A DNA stretch of 22,295 nt from a virus. Below, piece by piece: positions 2,523-12,001 of this stretch. A model generated the notes under the pieces. It was not told where the DNA came from. It worked only from the letters and a program-made list of their open reading frames with translations, and did not search any database. Location of the stretch: positions 1 to 22,295 of the IMG/VR virus record IMGVR_UViG_3300044712_000140. The stretch is one strand, 5' to 3'. How positions within the stretch are numbered: position 1 is the first letter of the stretch; every line of letters starts with the position of its first letter. The position numbers and the translations under genes were made by a program.

Positions 2523-2962
2523 ATTGCAACCTCAAGAAGCAGTTCCTGATCATCCTCGGTAAGCAAGATTTGTAGGTCTTCTGCAAGAATGTAGTCAAGC
2601 TGATCAGGAAGACATAGAATATCAAATTCCATGTCGTAGCTGCAATTATCGTTAACACAGACTATCTCAATGTTATCACTGAACAGCGTACCACGATAGA
2701 TTCTTGAATCATCGTCCGTAATTGTAGCAAGCTGACCTAGATTATTACGTATAAGTGCCTTAAAGGCTGACACTTGTGTTTTACGCAACGACCGAAGTGT
2801 GTAGTGTCTTATTTCATTACGCGGCGCAATAATCGCTTGACTAATCTTACCGCCGCGTGACTCAGCAACATTTGTGCTGAATAACACAGTGTCAGTATTA
2901 CCCATCTGAACGCGGGGCAGAGTAATACTCTGCCCCGATCCGTAGTCAATTATTAGACTCAT
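2519..2962 (-). CDS. Small tail protein directly after the tape measure, unknown role
   Basis: A 147-residue protein starting at ATG 2960-2962, overlapping the tape measure stop by ATGA (2959-2962) and overlapping the next gene by ATGA (2519-2522). The first half is polar and beta-prone (IDYGSGQSITLPRVQMGNTD, then LRSLRKTQVSAFKALIRNN). The middle (RIYRGTLFSDNIEIVC, then CSYDMEFDILCLP) resembles the strand pattern of small distal-tail proteins. The tail is acidic and leucine-rich (DLQILLTEDDQELLLEVAI). There are no transmembrane segments or catalytic motifs. In siphoviruses the slot after the tape measure usually holds distal-tail or tail-tip proteins, which is the basis of the call. Specific function unknown. 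Confidence 0.65.
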   Translation of the reverse strand: MSLIIDYGSGQSITLPRVQMGNTDTVLFSTNVAESRGGKISQAIIAPRNEIRHYTLRSLRKTQVSAFKALIRNNLGQLATITDDDSRIYRGTLFSDNIEIVCVNDNCSYDMEFDILCLPDQLDYILAEDLQILLTEDDQELLLEVAI

Positions 2963-5900
2963 TTAAGTCTCACAGTGCCACGTTTGATTTCTTTACGTAA
3001 GGCCTGACCCAAAGCACGTACATCAGTACCAGAAGCTGCATTGATGTGGATATCTCCAACAGTGGTGTTGCTAGTGCTACCACCAGTATTGAATTTAATC
3101 ATTCCAGTGTTCATGCTGTTCAGCTGACTGGCAAATGAACGGCTAGCACGTGCATTCATCACATACTCACCCCTTGCCAGAAGCGCAGGAATTGTATCCG
3201 ATCCATGAATCATGCCGCCAGCTGCCTTAGTCAATGGATTAGGAGCAACTGCTTGGCCTTGTGTAGCATTGAACAACATGTTAGCCTGCGCAGCAGTAGC
3301 ACTAATCTGATTCTGCAATTGCGCTATCTTGTTGATTAGTGAATCTATTGCAGCAGAACCACTTGTTTCGGCAGCATTCATTGCACCAGCAAGAGATTGA
3401 CTCGTGTTGAGATTACTAATCTGGTCTGCAACAGCTATAAGTGAATTTTGCAATCCGGTTATTGTGTCACCGATCGGTGTACCTTTATCTGCACTTATTC
3501 CAAGATTACTGGCATTGTCAAACATACGTGACATTGCGATTTGCAAATCACTCTTAAGTTTTGTCAAAGCTGTAATGTCATTCGGCACATTAGCAAGACG
3601 AGCCTTAAGATCTTGTAAGTTAACACCTTCATCTGCTCCGGCACCACCAAAACGTGTACCTATTGTAGCACCAAACCCAGCTATGCGACTACGACCTTCA
3701 ACGATAGCTTGACCAGATTTCTGCTGCTTAGCTTTCAGTTCATCAATGTTCTTACCGACATTGTTAGCCTGCTCGCTAATATCTTTGGCAAGCTGATCAG
3801 CAGCAGCTTTCTGTGCAAAAGCTGTAACCTCCAGAGCCAGTGTAGTACGTCGATTGATTAGGTCACGGTTCAATGTGAGCAGATACTCGTTGCTGACACC
3901 AGCAGCCTGTGCAGCAGCATCTCTAGCTGCTCCAATACGGTCGTATTCTTTGAGAACATCTTCCGGATTGACGCCTCTATCACCAAAGAGCTTGCTACCC
4001 TTGTCAAAGATAGGATTACCAGCTTGCACGCGGTTAATGTCTGCAAGTTGCTTGTCCAGTTCCTTGACCTGCAAGAATGCAGCTTTCTTCTTGGCAAGTT
4101 CTTCTTCTTCAGCGGCTTTACGCTGTGTTGTCAGATCTATGATCTGCTGTTCAAGACTGATTTGCTTAAGCTGCTCAGCATTGGTCAACTTCAAAATATC
4201 AAGATGCGGATTATCAGATTGTAACTTGTTGAGTTCAGCTTGCTTACTGATTAGCGCATCATATGCATCGGCACTTGTAGCCTCTGCATCGGCATACACC
4301 ATCGCACCACCGGTTCGAGTGGTAGCCTTCTTGGAACGCAGAGCAACCTGCTCACGGAATTTGGCGAGAGCACCTTTACGATCAAGTGCATCAATCTTAC
4401 CTTCGATGTTCTCGGCTTTCAATTCCTTGATTCGCTTGTCCATCTCCTTTTGCAGCTTGATGGCTTCTTTCATCAGGTCTACGGACTCTTTAATCTGTGA
4501 CCGTGCAAGCTCCGTATCACCGACTGCGGCGGCTCCGCTGGCAAGATTAGCAACACGGTTGGATTCACCAATCAGTGCTTTAATCTTCTGACCGTCGGTC
4601 TTACCCTCAAGACCACTATTAAATTTATCGGTATTGAAGCTACGCTGCAAGTTCAGTATGTTTTTCTGAGCTTTTTGAATCTCAGTATTATAGCCTTCAA
4701 TCGTTGACTTACTCTTCGTAATACCTTCACTGATGCTTGATTCAAGTGCCTGATTAGCTAGTGACAGCTTATCGGCAAAGTCAGTATACAGCGACTGCAT
4801 TTGCTTGAGCGTTTCGCCACTTGTAGCAGTAAGGTTTGCGGCATTACCTTCAAGTGCTTTATATATTGTATTCTGCTTATCCTTAATCTTTTCTGCATAA
4901 GCAGTGACAGCTTGATTGAACTTGTTGAGATTGTCAGCTTGAGCATTTTGCATATCCTCAAAAGCTGAATGATAGATCTGCGCAGCAGTCTTAGTATTGT
5001 ATGCCATGTCAATGAAGGCTGCACCAACTGCTGCTGCACCGGCTGCAAGCAGTATATATGGATTAGCCAACATTACAGCATTAAGACCCAACATCACAGT
5101 ACGAAGATTGGCAGCTATTTGAATCAGCTTAGTGAATCCATAGATAACACCACCAATAGCTGCGCCACCTGCAAGTGATGCCATCAATTCAACAAGACTT
5201 TTTATTACATTAGCAAGACCATTATTATTATCACCAAACAAAGACAGCATTTTAACTGCAACTTCGTTAGCAGATTGTCCAATCTCAAGAAACACGTTCT
5301 TTGCACGGTTCAGTTCAATGGAGAGCTTCTGGCCAGTGACTTGTATTGAAGACTGAATAGCTGCATCGTACTGTGCCTGAGCAGCAGGAATCTTCTCTAA
5401 GTCTGCTGTGTAGTCCTTAGTTGAGTCACCTAACAAGCCAATCGCGCCACGGAAACCACGAATGTCGTTGATTTCTTTGCCAAGCTGTTTGAGTCCACCT
5501 GTTCGCAACTCTTCATCAAGCAGTGCCATTGCACCTTTGAATCCGAGAGCAGAGATTGCAGCTTGTCCAGTAGCAAAGCCGTTCTTTTCAAGTAACTTTT
5601 GTAATTCCTCAGTCGGCTTAATGAATTTATTGAATAGGTTAAGAAGCTGTGTCTGAGCATCGGAGGCGGTGTTACCATTACGTGTCAGGACTGTTAATCC
5701 AGCCGCCAACTCATCAAACGACACACCAAGAACCTTAGCAGGTACGGCAGTGCGACCAAAGGTATCAGCTAAGTCTGACGCTCTGATACGACCAAGGTCG
5801 ATCACCTTGAAGAACTTGGCAGCTAGTGTGCTTGCGTCACCTGCTGATAATTTGAAACTGTTGATGGCAGACGAGAACAGATTGTTAGCTTGTTCAGCAG

Positions 5901-6894
5901 TACTACCAGTAACAAGCGCAAACTGCTGTGTTACACGAGTATAAGACTCAATATCACCTACAGTTGTGCCAATCTGATTAGACAATGCACTGTAATAGGC
6001 TTCAGCTGTGTCTTTGGCATCAGTGCCAAACTGATTACTAAGATTTTTAACACTGTCAGACCATTCCTTGAAGCCTTGGCCAGATCCTTGAGCTAGTGTC
6101 AGAATACGTCCAACAACCTTCTCATATTCAATGGCGTCAGCTTGACCTTGTTTGAAGGCGTTGTTGATATCAGAGATTACGTTGGATAGTATGCGAGCTT
6201 CAAAGAATCGTATGATTGATTTCCACGACAGCAGGTAGCCCTGTGCAGCATTTGTACCGTTAACAACCTGTTGATTCAGTGCAGCTTGTGCCTGCGCGGC
6301 CTGTTGTGCGGCCGCAGCTGCCGCTGCGTTAGCCTGCGCAGTAGCTTGAGCACCCAATCCACCCTGTGCCTTGTTAACAGATACTAGCTTACCTTGCAGA
6401 CCTTGCAAGACAGGATTCTTATACGCTCCAGGATTTCCGCTGTCAAGGTTACGCTTAACAAGTGCAATCTTATCAGCCGCAATTTCATTCGCACGAACGT
6501 ACTCGTTGAGAGATGCAATAGCATTTTTGTAGTTCAACTTCTCTTGCAGATTTGCAGTATTATATAGTGCCTTATTGACACCCTTCTCAATACTATCTGT
6601 AAGATTATTTGCAATAGTGGCAAACTGCTTAGCCTTTTCAACGCTATTTGACATCGAAGCATTGGTAAGACGGAATCCATTAGCAACAGCCTTGAGACTG
6701 ACACTAAGATCCTCTCCATTCTTAGCAATACCTTTGAAGGTCTGACCGACAAGGACACCCTTCTTATTGTAACTCTGTGTAGTAGCTTCTACTTCACTAA
6801 AGATTTTATTGATGCCACCTAGGGCATTAGTGACTTTTTCAGCGGGTTGCAAAAATGCACCTGCATCCATCATCAACTTGTATACTTCATTCAT
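2959..6894 (-). CDS. Tail tape measure protein (TP901-like)
   Basis: A 1311-residue protein that sets tail length and occupies the tail lumen. The start at ATG 6892-6894 (MNEVYKLMMDAG) is preferred over an in-frame ATG 27 bases upstream because it has a strong ribosome site (GGAAGGTGG, about 9 bases upstream) and forms an ATGA overlap with the preceding gene. Layout: charged N-terminal region; Ala/Gln-rich linker (about 175-210); a tape-measure core (about 235-570) with LSNQFGTDAKDTAEAYYSAL, SAINSFKLSAGDAS and FGRTAVPAKVLGVSFDELAA; a hydrophobic stretch (about 570-640, with LAGGAAIGGVIYGF and LLAAGAAAVGAAF); a long helical, coiled-coil-like middle; and a C-terminus with AAGGMIHGSDTIPALLARGE, a motif common at tape-measure ends. 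With the tube gene about 2.6 kb long and no sheath gene, a non-contractile tail is likely. Confidence 0.93.
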   Translation of the reverse strand: MNEVYKLMMDAGAFLQPAEKVTNALGGINKIFSEVEATTQSYNKKGVLVGQTFKGIAKNGEDLSVSLKAVANGFRLTNASMSNSVEKAKQFATIANNLTDSIEKGVNKALYNTANLQEKLNYKNAIASLNEYVRANEIAADKIALVKRNLDSGNPGAYKNPVLQGLQGKLVSVNKAQGGLGAQATAQANAAAAAAAQQAAQAQAALNQQVVNGTNAAQGYLLSWKSIIRFFEARILSNVISDINNAFKQGQADAIEYEKVVGRILTLAQGSGQGFKEWSDSVKNLSNQFGTDAKDTAEAYYSALSNQIGTTVGDIESYTRVTQQFALVTGSTAEQANNLFSSAINSFKLSAGDASTLAAKFFKVIDLGRIRASDLADTFGRTAVPAKVLGVSFDELAAGLTVLTRNGNTASDAQTQLLNLFNKFIKPTEELQKLLEKNGFATGQAAISALGFKGAMALLDEELRTGGLKQLGKEINDIRGFRGAIGLLGDSTKDYTADLEKIPAAQAQYDAAIQSSIQVTGQKLSIELNRAKNVFLEIGQSANEVAVKMLSLFGDNNNGLANVIKSLVELMASLAGGAAIGGVIYGFTKLIQIAANLRTVMLGLNAVMLANPYILLAAGAAAVGAAFIDMAYNTKTAAQIYHSAFEDMQNAQADNLNKFNQAVTAYAEKIKDKQNTIYKALEGNAANLTATSGETLKQMQSLYTDFADKLSLANQALESSISEGITKSKSTIEGYNTEIQKAQKNILNLQRSFNTDKFNSGLEGKTDGQKIKALIGESNRVANLASGAAAVGDTELARSQIKESVDLMKEAIKLQKEMDKRIKELKAENIEGKIDALDRKGALAKFREQVALRSKKATTRTGGAMVYADAEATSADAYDALISKQAELNKLQSDNPHLDILKLTNAEQLKQISLEQQIIDLTTQRKAAEEEELAKKKAAFLQVKELDKQLADINRVQAGNPIFDKGSKLFGDRGVNPEDVLKEYDRIGAARDAAAQAAGVSNEYLLTLNRDLINRRTTLALEVTAFAQKAAADQLAKDISEQANNVGKNIDELKAKQQKSGQAIVEGRSRIAGFGATIGTRFGGAGADEGVNLQDLKARLANVPNDITALTKLKSDLQIAMSRMFDNASNLGISADKGTPIGDTITGLQNSLIAVADQISNLNTSQSLAGAMNAAETSGSAAIDSLINKIAQLQNQISATAAQANMLFNATQGQAVAPNPLTKAAGGMIHGSDTIPALLARGEYVMNARASRSFASQLNSMNTGMIKFNTGGSTSNTTVGDIHINAASGTDVRALGQALRKEIKRGTVRLK

Positions 6895-7448
6895 CTTATG
6901 CCACCTTCCGGCAGTATCCACTCAGCGAGCTTAGGCACGTAGAGTGAAGCATTGTTGCGTATGTAATCGTCAAACGCGGCTGTAGCCTTTTCAAGAGATT
7001 CCCAGCCAGCAGAATTAGTGCCATTGCTGAATGATTCATTGTACCAGTATTGATATACTTTGATGTTGAACTCAAAGTAAAACACTGGACGTTGCTGGCT
7101 ACCATAATTTAACTTGTAAGCTCGTTCTCCTAATTTTATACCATGTTCAACATCACGCACACCGTTTGGATCCCATGTGCCATTTATATCAAAAGCACCT
7201 TTTTTAGAAGCATGCTTAGGGTGTATTGAAGCACGTACAACTGTCAACATCCTGACAGCTCTAGCAAGTGGAATCAATGATGCTCTTGACATCCCAGTGT
7301 CCACTTTTACCAGATCATTTTTGACTATCTCATCTAGGAATGCTTTTGTCGCATCATTCCAGAGTCTAGTCATATTCTCATGTAGACGTTTGGAGAAAAC
7401 GTCTACACGAGGTTTGAGACCTTTTACTTTCCTAAAAGTTACATTCAT
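6891..7448 (-). CDS. HK97-gp10-like head-tail or tail-completion protein
   Basis: A 185-residue soluble protein between the chaperone pair and the tape measure. The N-terminus (VDVFSKRLHENMTRLWNDAT) followed by KVDTGMSRASL resembles the amphipathic helix plus TG-x-x-R-x-S motif of HK97-gp10-type tail-completion proteins, though such genes normally lie nearer the head-tail cluster. Later segments are rich in aromatics (YGSQQRPVFYFEFNIKVYQY). The start ATG 7446-7448 has GGAG about 9 bases upstream, and overlaps by ATGA the stop of the frameshifted chaperone extension (TGA 7445-7447); its own stop overlaps the tape measure start by ATGA. The family assignment rests on a short motif and could be wrong. 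Confidence 0.6.
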   Translation of the reverse strand: MNVTFRKVKGLKPRVDVFSKRLHENMTRLWNDATKAFLDEIVKNDLVKVDTGMSRASLIPLARAVRMLTVVRASIHPKHASKKGAFDINGTWDPNGVRDVEHGIKLGERAYKLNYGSQQRPVFYFEFNIKVYQYWYNESFSNGTNSAGWESLEKATAAFDDYIRNNASLYVPKLAEWILPEGGIR

Positions 7449-8121
7449 ATCTTCGCTCCGAGAACACGGTAGAGGTTCATTTGTTGTTGAGCTTCTTCAT
7501 ACTCTCGAAGCTGACTGTATGCTAACAATTCAGCTTTTGTATACACATCATTGTCATCCCAATTTAGCTCAACATCTGGCGGTCTTAGATGTAGTCTCTC
7601 ACACGCTCGCCATATTGCATAATATGGCGAGCGGTAGTCTGGGATTATTGCTTGCTTTGACGAGCCGCCTGACCAGCTAAAAAAGATTCAGTAGCCTTGT
7701 CAATTTTAGCCTGATCCAAGCCATTAGCTGTAATGCAGATGTTGATAATTCGATTGATTTCAATCTGCGAAAGATTAGTCTCTTCAAGCTCCTTACCGTA
7801 GTTGCCCCACGTGGACGGGTCATTCATCTTAACTGTTTCCCACTCGAGACCTTCAGTAGCCTCAAGTGCTTTGAGAATCATCCAGTTAGAACGATTCATC
7901 GCCCAAGTCTCAATAGCTTTCTTGAACTCAGGATCTTCAACATCCTGTGACTGTGTGCCATCCGGCCGCATAATGGTGGCTGGGATGGGGCGCGGGCAAA
8001 GGGCGTCAAAGTCGGCATATGACCTGACAGCCTTAGCCTGGAAAACGATATCCCTGTCAACACGTGGAATAACGATAGTCTCGACTACGGGTGCGTCGAG
8101 CTTTTTGCCTTTGATCTTCAT
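7445..8121 (-). CDS. Tail assembly chaperone, -1 frameshift product (gpGT-like)
   Basis: Predicted 225-residue product: 148 codons of the upstream chaperone frame, a -1 slip at TTTTTTA (7678-7684), then 77 codons in the -1 frame (SWSGGSSKQAIIPDYRSP, ending YRVLGAKI) to TGA at 7445-7447. The extension fills the otherwise empty 196-bp gap and ends with an ATGA overlap onto the next gene, as expected for a translated frame. Programmed frameshifting between two ORFs just before the tape measure is conserved in long-tailed phages (lambda G/GT is the best-studied case); the short and long products act as chaperones for the tape measure and tube. The extension has features expected of gpT, such as aromatic and charged residues. 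Not shown here: that slippage occurs, or at what rate. Confidence 0.78.
7604..7633 (-). other. Perfect 13-bp hairpin inside the frameshift extension
   Basis: Arms CGCTCGCCATATT (7604-7616) and AATATGGCGAGCG (7621-7633) are perfect complements with a 4-base loop (7617-7620). The hairpin begins about 44 bases after the slippery site and 11 bases after the 0-frame stop. That is farther than the usual 5-9 base spacing for a frameshift stimulator. No U-tract follows, so it is not an intrinsic terminator. Confidence 0.7.
7645..8121 (-). CDS. Tail assembly chaperone, short form (gpG-like)
   Basis: A 158-residue, acidic-to-neutral soluble protein between the tail tube cluster and the tape measure, in the position of lambda gpG. 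It carries RSNWMILKALEATEGLEWET and NNLSQIEINRI-like helical segments, with no membrane segment. The 0-frame stop is TAA at 7645-7647, only 10 codons after the TTTTTTA site, so ribosomes that do not slip make this shorter form. The start ATG 8119-8121 has a weak ribosome site (GAAAG); a 14-bp perfect hairpin (8139-8170) lies just upstream. Chaperone identity is inferred from position, length and the frameshift architecture. Short and long forms are expected to act in a fixed ratio on the tape measure protein. Confidence 0.8.
   Translation of the reverse strand: MKIKGKKLDAPVVETIVIPRVDRDIVFQAKAVRSYADFDALCPRPIPATIMRPDGTQSQDVEDPEFKKAIETWAMNRSNWMILKALEATEGLEWETVKMNDPSTWGNYGKELEETNLSQIEINRIINICITANGLDQAKIDKATESFLAGQAARQSKQ
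7678..7684 (-). promoter_or_regulatory. Slippery heptamer TTTTTTA for -1 programmed frameshifting
   Basis: On the minus strand the chaperone codons TCT-TTT-TTA form T TTT TTA, matching the canonical X XXY YYZ pattern (the same heptamer as in HIV-1 gag-pol). The reading frame is correct: TTT is at 7681-7683 and TTA at 7678-7680. A slip here enters a 77-codon -1 frame. Confidence 0.75.
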
Positions 8122-8177: not shown

Positions 8178-8582
8178 TTAGTCGTTACGCAGCTGTCCGG
8201 TCGAACGACCGTAAGTGATGATGTCAGCATCTGTATAGTTAGCGGGCAGATCACTAACCTTGATTACAAGATCAGTATCTTTTGTCTGAGCCGCATAGTT
8301 CCACTGAGCAACCTGAGTAGCCCAGTAAGAGCGTTCGGCATTGGGATCATCGTTAACGAACGTCTTAATGACTTCCTGACCAGCACGTTGACCGGGACAC
8401 GGATAGATCCGATTGATTTCGAGATAGTGAGCAATCACTTCCTCGTCACTCGGAGCCTCATCCTGGTACCAACGCTCGCCACCAGTGCTGGCATTATCAC
8501 ACGTGACTTGCCACTCTTCGTGAACTGTGACGCGAACGTCTTCTGTAACTTCAGTCTGTGTAATTGTAGCTGTCGTGCTCAT
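8178..8582 (-). CDS. Conserved-looking phage protein of unknown function (134 aa)
   Basis: A 134-residue acidic protein starting at ATG 8580-8582, 2 bases after the stop of the 871-residue gene; AAGGAA lies about 8 bases upstream of the start. The N-terminus is Thr-rich (MSTTATITQTEVTEDVRVTV), followed by EEWQVTCDNASTGGERWYQD and DEEVIAHYLEINRIYPCPG. It has no membrane segment or recognisable motif. Lying after a large structural gene and before the chaperones, it may be a small virion or tail-assembly accessory protein. It ends with TAATCAAC followed by a strong hairpin. I do not recognise the family. Confidence 0.72.
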   Translation of the reverse strand: MSTTATITQTEVTEDVRVTVHEEWQVTCDNASTGGERWYQDEAPSDEEVIAHYLEINRIYPCPGQRAGQEVIKTFVNDDPNAERSYWATQVAQWNYAAQTKDTDLVIKVSDLPANYTDADIITYGRSTGQLRND

Positions 8583-8584
8583 GG

Positions 8585-11200
8585 TTAGAATTCCTTGTAA
8601 CCGTAGATGGCGTAATCAATGGACATACCGGCAACAGAAGCCTTAATATTCATAATCGTGTTGGCAGTGCCACGAATATTACCCTTGATCTGGTATTCAA
8701 CCATCTGTGTCATAGACGCAGGCAGCCAGATACGGTCAAGTTCAGCAGCAGCATCATCAATAATCAAAGCACCAGCAACAGCAGTAGTGTTGCGGATACG
8801 GATGATATCAATAGCACTGCGTACACCAACGCCCTGAGCAGCCTGAATCTGTGTATCAGTCGTAGTAGCGAAAGCACTGCCCTTAGCTTGCCAACGACTA
8901 AGAGCGTCTGCAGCCGCATCAGCAATAATCAAGCGACCATTAGCATCCATGCGGAAGTTAGCAACATCGCCATCTGCGTAGTCAGTCTGAACACCAGTCC
9001 TAACACGCCCGCCGCCAAGTACAGGATTACCAACAGCAGCAGCAGAGTCAGCAGCATTGCCCTGCACAGCATTACCCGTACCAGACAATGTTGTGCTAGA
9101 CAGTGTTACAGCAATCGTTGAAGAACCTGTAATGTTGACAGGCATCGGTTCAGCAGCAACACCACCGCTATTCTGATCTACTTCAAGACGTACGCGATCA
9201 TACATGCGGAAGTAGTGAATACGAACGTCAGTATTACGAATCGTTGTGCCACCACATGCCGTAGGAGTACCGGGGACAGCACTCAGGTCTTGACCATCAA
9301 GCGGTTCAAGCTCAAGAGTAGTTGTGCTCTGGTAGGCAACACGATAACGACCAACAAGGGATGTCAACTCAACAGCACTAGCAGTCACAAGACCATATGG
9401 AGTAACAGTGTTACCGATTACTTCCGCCCAGTTGCTTGTGGCAACAAGCGAGAGGCGCAGACCATCAGCAGTCTTGGTGTAAGTCTGAATAGCACGATTT
9501 TCAATGGCAGGAATTGAACCACCGTTAACAAGCACTACAAATCCACCATAGCTACTAGCGGTTGTTGTAGCACCGAATGTGACCTGCACATTGTTAGCAT
9601 CAACAACAGCTGTAACCTGAGTGGCAGTTGTCAGATTAGCAAAGTTTGTCTGATCAACGATGCCATAGACAGTAACAAAGCTGCCAGCAGTTAAGCCGTG
9701 ATTGAGAATCGTGAGCGTGGCAACATTTGTACCAGTCTTTACGGCCGCAGTAATCTGACCGACAGGACGCGAGTATGTTGGCAGATTCATTGCACGTACA
9801 CGAATCTTATAACTATAATCAGCAATAGGAATTGGCTCACGACGCAGTGAGGTGCTGCGATCTGTAAGCAGCGTGTCAATATCGCGAGCACGGTAAAGCA
9901 ATCGCTTGCTCGTATGTTCCATGTGCCAGCTTCCCTTTGTACGGAAAGGCTGTACATAGTTCAACGAAGCATAGTTAACACCGCCTTCGTTAGGAATGAT
10001 TGCTGTATCCTGAGTATTACCAGGGTTCAATGCAACCAATCGTGTACGAGGGTCATCGTTACGTGACCAAACATCACAGTTACCAGCACTAGCACCATAC
10101 CAGCGATAGCCAGCACCAAAGCGCGCATCTCCAGAAAGTCTGATTTGCGTTACAGTAGCAGTTGTAACAGGATCATATGTACCGTTAGCAAGTGTAGAGC
10201 TGATATTATAGCTAGTAGGACTCAGGATGCTTGTAACAATAGCTTGGCTAATGTTGAGACGAGAATCACTTGACCCACTAATGTATACATAATCACCAGG
10301 ACGCTTATTATGCGTCGTAGTAGTGTTGATTGTCCACACGTTAGATGTAACACTGATTGTGCCACTGATTGTGTCTGTCGTTGCAGGGCTATCAGTAAGA
10401 ACAGCATCTGCACCATCGACACCAACAAGTTCAACTGAGATGTTTTGGCTGGCAAGACGCTGTGAAAGTGTCAGACCGAATTCAACCTCGTAAGGAACTT
10501 TGTAGCTACCTACTGATTGTGCAATCCATTCATTACCGGGATTACCAACAGCGGGCAAGCTAATCACAAGATAGCTGGCACCAGCGACATTACCGTCAAT
10601 GCGGCTACGTGTCAGTATACCACCAGATTCAGTTGGATATACCCACTTAGTAGCATCTTTAGATGTATACCCATCGCGAAACTTATCACGAGTATTGCCA
10701 ACAGTCTGCTTACTGTTTGTAGCATCTGTTGTAACACTCAGTGCATCACGAAGAGCTTTGAGAATCGCAATTACACTACCATTGCCAGTGGGAGCAGCAG
10801 CATCGGTTGTAGCACCCTCTGCAACGTCAGCACCATCAGCAATAGTGGCTGCACCGCCACCACCTCCACCGCCACCAGCACCAGCCGGAGACGAAGGAAG
10901 ACCCATTGGAAGTCCGTCAACAACTTTCAAAGCCTGAATGCGAAGTGTACCATTTGTACTAGACCGAGTTACAAATTGTTCGTTGTCAGAGAAGCGTCCA
11001 AGATTATATGGCTGGCCAGCCCCAACGGGGATATATTGACCAGACAAAATATCACGGAACTCCCAATCAACAGATCCAACAATTTGGAAATAGTCAATAC
11101 CGGCGTCTTTAGTGTTAACAAGCGTAACAAGATCAGCAGTAGCCGTTGTCGACGCATTTTCGATTTCGCCAAACGCAGCGAACGTAATTGATTGTGGCAT
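8585..11200 (-). CDS. Large accessory virion structural protein (871 aa)
   Basis: An 871-residue protein between the tail tube gene and the chaperone genes, a place where many siphoviruses have no large gene. It begins with a compact domain (1-100), then a Gly linker with eight consecutive glycines, then VAEGATTDAAAPTGNGSVIA and ILKALRDAL, a stretch often seen in virion-associated proteins. Two segments (around 280-350, with THNKRPGDYVYISGSSDSRL; and around 490-560, with LNHGLTAGSFVTVYGIVDQT) look like repeated beta domains of the FCCH-like type (H-x-L-x-x-G-x-x-V-x-V-x-G). The rest is beta-rich and Thr/Ser-rich; the last 110 residues form a second compact domain. Probably a tail-tube or capsid decoration or adsorption accessory. 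ATG 11198-11200 has AAAGGG 5 bases upstream. Confidence 0.8.
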   Translation of the reverse strand: MPQSITFAAFGEIENASTTATADLVTLVNTKDAGIDYFQIVGSVDWEFRDILSGQYIPVGAGQPYNLGRFSDNEQFVTRSSTNGTLRIQALKVVDGLPMGLPSSPAGAGGGGGGGGAATIADGADVAEGATTDAAAPTGNGSVIAILKALRDALSVTTDATNSKQTVGNTRDKFRDGYTSKDATKWVYPTESGGILTRSRIDGNVAGASYLVISLPAVGNPGNEWIAQSVGSYKVPYEVEFGLTLSQRLASQNISVELVGVDGADAVLTDSPATTDTISGTISVTSNVWTINTTTTHNKRPGDYVYISGSSDSRLNISQAIVTSILSPTSYNISSTLANGTYDPVTTATVTQIRLSGDARFGAGYRWYGASAGNCDVWSRNDDPRTRLVALNPGNTQDTAIIPNEGGVNYASLNYVQPFRTKGSWHMEHTSKRLLYRARDIDTLLTDRSTSLRREPIPIADYSYKIRVRAMNLPTYSRPVGQITAAVKTGTNVATLTILNHGLTAGSFVTVYGIVDQTNFANLTTATQVTAVVDANNVQVTFGATTTASSYGGFVVLVNGGSIPAIENRAIQTYTKTADGLRLSLVATSNWAEVIGNTVTPYGLVTASAVELTSLVGRYRVAYQSTTTLELEPLDGQDLSAVPGTPTACGGTTIRNTDVRIHYFRMYDRVRLEVDQNSGGVAAEPMPVNITGSSTIAVTLSSTTLSGTGNAVQGNAADSAAAVGNPVLGGGRVRTGVQTDYADGDVANFRMDANGRLIIADAAADALSRWQAKGSAFATTTDTQIQAAQGVGVRSAIDIIRIRNTTAVAGALIIDDAAAELDRIWLPASMTQMVEYQIKGNIRGTANTIMNIKASVAGMSIDYAIYGYKEF

Positions 11201-11254: not shown

Positions 11255-12001
11255 TTAGTTCACACCAACCGCAGTCACAGTCGTGCTACGTGTGATTGTA
11301 GCCTGAGTCTGGTTGCACTTGCCAGAGACGCTGATCTGACCATTGCGCAGATCCGGGCTGAACTCTTCCCAGCGGAAGTCTTCCAGTGCAATCTTTTCCT
11401 TGTCAGTGCCGGAGCAGTTCGGGCTGTAGAAGATCTGAATATTGACCGCATAGGGACGGCAAGTATCAGGATCGGAGCTACGCCACGTGGAGGCCGCACC
11501 CTGCTGCTTGAGTGCATCACGGACCGACGGAAGAACGCCGGTTCCCTTGATATAATCCCAGACGAACTGCATGCTGACATCCATGGGAACCTGATCGCCT
11601 TCGCGAACGTCATCAAGACGACCGCGATCAAGGATGTACTCCATGTTGCGCTTCTCGGAGAAGGTCAGATTACCTTCACCGACCTTGACAGTCAGGCTGT
11701 TGATCTTGCCTGTGAAGCTGATCGCCTGATTATCGGTGACAGCCACAATCAAGCCAGGAGCAGCGATAGTAACGCTGGTTGTATTGCCGGTTGTTTCGAT
11801 GTGTGACAGGATTGTATACTTGTTCGCACCGATAACAAGCTGACCGCCAGTGTCAACAGCACCGACGATGTTGTCAACAAGCAGAGTGGTTGCATTGATA
11901 GCGTAGCCAGCAACGTTATTAATCAAGCCAGTGAGTGTGTAGTTATCGCCACCGTCTGTGATGGTGATATCAGCGTACTTGAGATCAATCTTTGTGCTCA
12001 T
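11255..12001 (-). CDS. Major tail tube protein
   Basis: A 248-residue protein that should polymerise into the non-contractile tail tube. The N-terminal half is beta-rich and Gly/Thr-rich (possible Ig-like or insert domain, about 15-95). The C-terminal half carries VKVGEGNLTFSEKRNMEYIL, RGRLDDVREGDQVPMDVSMQ and FVWDYI, a pattern I associate with siphophage tail tube proteins. Three cysteines occur late in the protein. ATG 11999-12001 has GAAAGG about 8 bases upstream, inside a small hairpin (TGCCT-GAA-AGGCA on the transcript). The gene ends TAATCAAC, followed by a hairpin. Position, after the head-tail completion genes and before the chaperones, supports the call. Confidence 0.88.
   Translation of the reverse strand: MSTKIDLKYADITITDGGDNYTLTGLINNVAGYAINATTLLVDNIVGAVDTGGQLVIGANKYTILSHIETTGNTTSVTIAAPGLIVAVTDNQAISFTGKINSLTVKVGEGNLTFSEKRNMEYILDRGRLDDVREGDQVPMDVSMQFVWDYIKGTGVLPSVRDALKQQGAASTWRSSDPDTCRPYAVNIQIFYSPNCSGTDKEKIALEDFRWEEFSPDLRNGQISVSGKCNQTQATITRSTTVTAVGVN

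Follow-up and report, generated by a model that had tools for sequence, protein, structure and literature searches.

The question raised by this locus is whether the interval between a small gene in the tail region of a phage genome and the gene that follows it is an intergenic gap, or whether it is translated as a -1 frame extension of the small gene. The window analysed (22,295 bases) is the IMG/VR virus record IMGVR_UViG_3300044712_000140. On the minus strand, the gene order begins with terminase large subunit (GpA type) and a 589-aa gene at the usual position of the portal gene, followed by the genes for the head-tail adaptor (phrog_477), the scaffold (phrog_206), and the major head protein (phrog_283). 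Several small genes then lead to a candidate tube protein, and genes of 871 aa and 134 aa lie between it and the gene in question (G); G is followed by a 185-aa gene and the tape measure gene (Table 1). From the in-phase slip site, the conserved -1 extension (T), the selection on it, the scarcity of start codons, and the gene order, we infer that G and T encode a chaperone pair of the lambda gpG/gpGT type through programmed -1 ribosomal frameshifting (probability, about 95%); the slippage, its rate, and the chaperone roles are deduced from these features.

Table 1. Features of the tail gene region in the window (positions are those of the whole window).
Feature	Coordinates	Strand	Basis
Gene G, candidate tail assembly chaperone, zero-frame product, 158 aa	7645..8121	-	ORF; 99 non-redundant homologous loci; AlphaFold2 pLDDT 91; YqbN (3klu) fold match
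Slippery heptamer T_TTT_TTA (U_UUU_UUA)	7678..7684	-	In phase with G; kept in relatives
T extension, 77 codons in -1 frame plus TGA	7445..7677	-	Translation; alignment of 61 extensions; purifying selection; no internal start before core
ATGA, T-extension stop overlapping the start of the next gene	7445..7448	-	Sequence
AAGG, Shine-Dalgarno (SD)-like, ending 10 nt 5' of heptamer, possible stimulator	7695..7698	-	SD-like enrichment in relatives
185-aa gene between T and tape measure gene	6891..7448	-	Homologues in related loci
Tape measure protein	2959..6894	-	PF10145 PhageMin_Tail, E 7.4e-24; homologues downstream of T in 67 related loci
Candidate major tail tube protein, 248 aa	11255..12001	-	Motif shared with L164 gene; position

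In the preliminary description, T TTT TTA was placed in the phase of G at ten codons before its stop, and a -1 slip on it was said to enter a 77-codon frame that fills the gap before the next gene and ends in an ATGA overlap with that gene, so that a standard gene finder would leave 196 bp empty. All of these figures held when the sequence was read again. The ORF of G (8121-7645) reads ...GAA TCT TTT TTA GCT GGT ... AAG CAA TAA, in which the heptamer (7684-7678) is followed by the codons from GCT to CAA and then by TAA (7647-7645). The frame after the -1 slip translates as SWSGGSSKQAIIPDYRSPYYAIWRACERLHLRPPDVELNWDDNDVYTKAELLAYSQLREYEEAQQQMNLYRVLGAKI, which runs from SWSGG to GAKI after the heptamer; its TGA (7447-7445) overlies the ATG of the gene starting at 7448, and the gap (7449-7644) measures 196 bp. 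The predicted GT fusion is thus 225 aa in length (148 + 77). The -1 frame opens just one codon 5' of the heptamer. TTTTTTA occurs three times in the window (3.06 expected), and the probability of a chance open run of about 65 codons, given the base composition, is about 0.018. Taken alone, the heptamer in the window is at the chance level, and its significance comes from the relatives.

The relatives were collected by two routes. The search with the zero-frame protein gave seven loci, the alignment of which gave 86 matching stretches (80 loci kept). The alignment of the T extension alone gave 178 matching stretches (80 loci kept); as a single-sequence query of viral contigs, the T extension gave no match. 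Removal of near-copies left 99 non-redundant loci, including the window; these loci came from assembled metagenomes and share ancestry, and the counts given below are not of independent events. Both routes recovered G and T in the same -1 relation, and this relation, with the extension open, was found in all of the 99 loci. The preliminary description had named stops or indels at neutral rates in the -1 frame of related phages as an outcome that would speak against it; the open extensions evolve instead as a coding frame. Past the zero-frame stop, the mismatches at the three codon positions of the -1 frame were 0.39/0.27/0.59 (406 pairs), and pN/pS was about 0.27 in the -1 frame and more than 1 in the other two frames (7 closer pairs). 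As judged from these sequence comparisons, the T extension is under purifying selection in the -1 frame. The motif Y.IWRACER..I.PP...W is conserved in the relatives. In the alignment of 61 extensions, R18, C28, and P35 are invariant, and F1, P15, Y22, W25, R26, E29, R30, W42, A51, and R60 are nearly invariant; the conservation starts at the heptamer itself (FFSWSG). At the other end, a T terminus of the ATGA or GTGA type is frequent among the relatives.

The slip site itself is also conserved. T_TTY is present in 98 of the 99 loci, and TTTTTTA in 72 of them; other canonical sites (TTTTTTG, TTTTTTT, and TTTTTTC) account for five more loci. The slip codon corresponds to an invariant Phe column of the zero-frame alignment, to which a separate check on 62 rows gave zero exceptions. 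The base that precedes this codon is T in 98 loci, as against 35 expected from codon usage. Because the residue before the slip codon varies (R, S, V, A, L, D, N, H, or G), the retention of this T points to selection at the nucleotide level, and other explanations are hard to find. A naive calculation for the T excess (log10 P of -44.7) takes no account of shared ancestry and was not used as a probability. The distance from the heptamer to the zero-frame stop is mostly 5-41 codons (1 codon in locus L083), with no conserved length.

Three other explanations were weighed against these data. The T extension might be an independent small gene, which ribosomes would reach without any frameshift, by re-initiation or coupling past the G stop; indeed, the corresponding -1 ORF of Bacillus phage Staley (see below) is annotated as a gene of its own with a ribosome binding site. 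However, the T frame contains no ATG, GTG, or TTG before the conserved core in 77 of the 99 loci, among them the window, and no ATG in 91 of the 99, and an independent T gene is therefore very unlikely. The conservation from the heptamer onward and the T kept 5' of the slip codon argue against it as well.

A shifted message could also be produced by transcriptional slippage on the T run, and six or seven T in a row are indeed found in most loci. Runs as short as three to five T seldom cause slippage of the polymerase, yet the relatives with T_TTT_ATA, T_TTT_CTA, and T_TTC_TTA, which hold only such runs, keep the extension, and the phase of these variants is that of codon slippage; we leave transcriptional slippage a slim chance. 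Finally, the window taken by itself, with its heptamer count at expectation and the p value given above, would accommodate a random heptamer followed by a fortuitous open frame, but the conservation of the arrangement in 99 diverged loci makes the probability of such a coincidence negligible.

Programmed -1 ribosomal frameshifting is the reading followed below, and the relatives present several forms of its putative site. The canonical heptamer is missing in 22 of the 99 loci, 21 of which keep T_TTY in the P site. The sites are T_TTT_CTA (11 loci), T_TTT_ATA (5), T_TTC_TTA (2), T_TTC_TTG (2), T_TTT_CCA (1), and G_TTT_TTA (1). In all of them except G_TTT_TTA, the P-site Phe tRNA is able to re-pair one base back and the A-site tRNA is unable to do so. 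CTA and ATA, at 6.1 and 7.5 per thousand, respectively, belong to the less used codons in these genes. When the canonical state was mapped on the tree of the G protein (few columns, 45 open forks), at least seven changes were required by parsimony, of which strongly supported branches force only two. The 21 variant sites suggest, at the sequence level, a drift from tandem to single-tRNA slippage. It is possible, at a little less than even odds, that the slip site has moved more than once between the tandem type (X_XXY_YYZ) and a type at which only the P-site Phe tRNA re-pairs, with a slow A-site codon replacing the second re-pairing; the part given to the slow codon is our own suggestion. A -1 site can be as short as Z_ZZN, and a slow codon in the A site can have an effect, which weighs more in +1 than in -1 shifting (PMC5009743). 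According to the PRFect study, most of the phage frameshift overlaps that are annotated lack XXXYYY (PMC10885494). Non-canonical sites as such are therefore nothing new; what is useful here is their occurrence within a single alignable family whose Phe codon does not change. If the drift is real, the variant sites would show, as a series made by nature, how -1 slippage is maintained without the canonical heptamer. The variants across the relatives form a ready set for asking how much of the canonical heptamer a bacterial -1 frameshift needs.

As for stimulators, an SD-like match of at least 4 nt at 8-18 nt upstream of the heptamer was found in 66 of the 99 loci, as compared with 17% at other positions. 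GAG is favoured over GAA at the SD-like position (45 to 19; background, 45% GAG). The arrangement, with the SD-like element upstream of the slip site, recalls that of dnaX. The enrichment is suggestive of a stimulator and is graded no higher, because the match falls on conserved D-E-A residues, which partly drive it. On the downstream side, no conserved stimulatory structure was detected with RNAalifold on 35 aligned loci, and single-locus folding was barely more stable than that of shuffled sequences (mean z, about -0.9). A perfect 13-bp inverted repeat with a 4-nt loop (CGCTCGCCATATT ATGC AATATGGCGAGCG; predicted energy, near -21 kcal/mol) is present at 7604-7633 within the T-extension codons. 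As a stimulator this hairpin was rejected: it starts some 45 nt downstream of the heptamer, and the relatives do not conserve it.

The preliminary description had called the product a gpGT-like tail chaperone. This part of the description is upheld by gene order, a moderate fold match, and a weak but concordant match to Staley gp49/gp50, and found no counterpart among the families of named chaperones. In the fold comparison (VIA-align), G matched Bacillus subtilis YqbN (3klu) with Z of 6.6 (rmsd, 3.6; 100 aligned residues; 11% identity; next entry, 3.2), a match graded as moderate in that a fold Z below 8 can reflect a common arrangement. Foldseek against PDB with G gave no significant match, YqbN being absent among the matches listed, and the sequence search of PDB gave no match. 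We take YqbN to be an XkdN-like prophage protein of the family PF08890 (Phage_TAC_5). Although YqbN is the best fold match of G, the PF08890 model gave no match in the window (the B. subtilis control was matched), and G was accordingly not filed as a member. In Pfam and PHROG, G and T gave chance-level matches apart from phrog_16455, and no named chaperone family was matched. The PHROG touched by most members of the G alignment is phrog_16455 (4 of 62; best E, 0.0024), and one member of the 62 weakly matches the XkdN-like PHROG 389 (E, 0.076). The T extension was modelled as two helices (AlphaFold2 pLDDT, 85). The family is absent from PHROGs and Pfam; the mechanism has long been established.

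The best fold match of G in BFVD was a 152-aa protein of Bacillus phage Staley. Staley gp49, a member of phrog_16455, is also 152 aa in length. In hhalign, gp49 matched the G profile with E of 0.00068 over 46 columns, and the Staley -1 frame matched the T extension with E of 0.00027; the hhalign probabilities of these comparisons were only 27% and 42%. The gp49 locus (L165, 28120-28769) carries an in-phase A_AAA_AAC two codons before the stop, and its -1 frame reads ...YEDYIWLDICERYGLNP..., with the motif Y..IW..CER.G..P that matches the T extension. These profile matches are each weak alone but concordant in position and frame. Staley differs from the window in its heptamer, and in the annotated ribosome binding site of its -1 ORF. 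In the Staley annotation, gp49 and gp50 are two hypothetical proteins; Slash-like phages thus probably hold an unannotated frameshifted chaperone, a relative of which is present in Microcystis phage MaeS.

The identity of G/T as a chaperone is supported by gene order (G-T-small gene-tape measure), the moderate fold match, and the weak Staley match. As in lambda gpG/gpGT, a short chaperone gene precedes the tape measure gene and a -1 slip near the end of G would give a short G and a long GT product. Unlike in lambda, an additional gene of roughly 155-200 aa stands between T and the tape measure gene, and a match to the known chaperone families is lacking. The G/T heptamer of lambda, GGGAAAG, also differs from that of the window. 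The slip site of HIV-1 gag-pol is the same U_UUU_UUA heptamer; HIV uses a downstream stem-loop, whereas the relatives of the window have no conserved one. The lambda G-T frameshift is kept across long-tailed phages, in which G binds the tape measure protein and T recruits the tube protein (Atkins et al. 2016, PMC5009743). In HIV, and with E. coli ribosomes in constructs too, U_UUU_UUA is known to slip by -1; in the E. coli constructs, UUUUUUA shifts less than AAAAAAG (PMC5009743).

By the proposed mechanism, most ribosomes would end at the TAA of G and yield the 158-aa protein. A minority would shift into the -1 frame on U_UUU_UUA, where tRNA-Phe would re-pair from UUU to UUU and tRNA-Leu from UUA to UUU; these ribosomes would read 77 further codons to give a GT protein of about 225 aa. 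If the analogy with lambda holds, G would coat the tape measure protein, and the T part would bring in the tail tube subunit. A well-supported function can in this way be given to a chaperone family that is widespread in uncultured phages; its T extension is expected to be missed by gene callers that rely on start codons.

G is placed between the candidate tail tube gene and the tape measure gene, with one small gene separating T from the latter. Pfam had no match for this 185-aa gene (6891-7448), and its match in PHROG was at the chance level. Among the 98 related loci, a homologue was detected in 46, in most cases no more than about 130 nt from the T stop, and the size of the intervening gene across the relatives is roughly 155-200 aa. 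For the tape measure protein, we used the ATG at 6894; the listed ORF starts at GTG (6921). The gene at 11255-12001 is a candidate for the major tail tube protein on the basis of position.

When 50,697 phage records were searched by tblastn with G, T, the consensus T, and divergent members, no match was significant. In the genome collection, one query set gave no match, and a further one gave a single MAG contig (DYKV01000002.1, 63.5 kb, labelled Anaerolinea sp.), in which a member of the family with GTT TTT CTA is present (L164, 2570-3264). This closely related chaperone may be a hint to the host, or the contig may be a phage contig misplaced by binning. The tube candidate of the window has the motif KVGEGNLT...LDRG.LD.VREG in common with a 242-aa gene of this contig, the immediate upstream neighbour of the chaperone there (compared by eye). 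The 871-aa and 134-aa genes (8178-11200), which gave no significant PHROG match, separate the tube candidate from the chaperone in the window; in the Anaerolinea-labelled contig, the chaperone comes directly after the tube gene.
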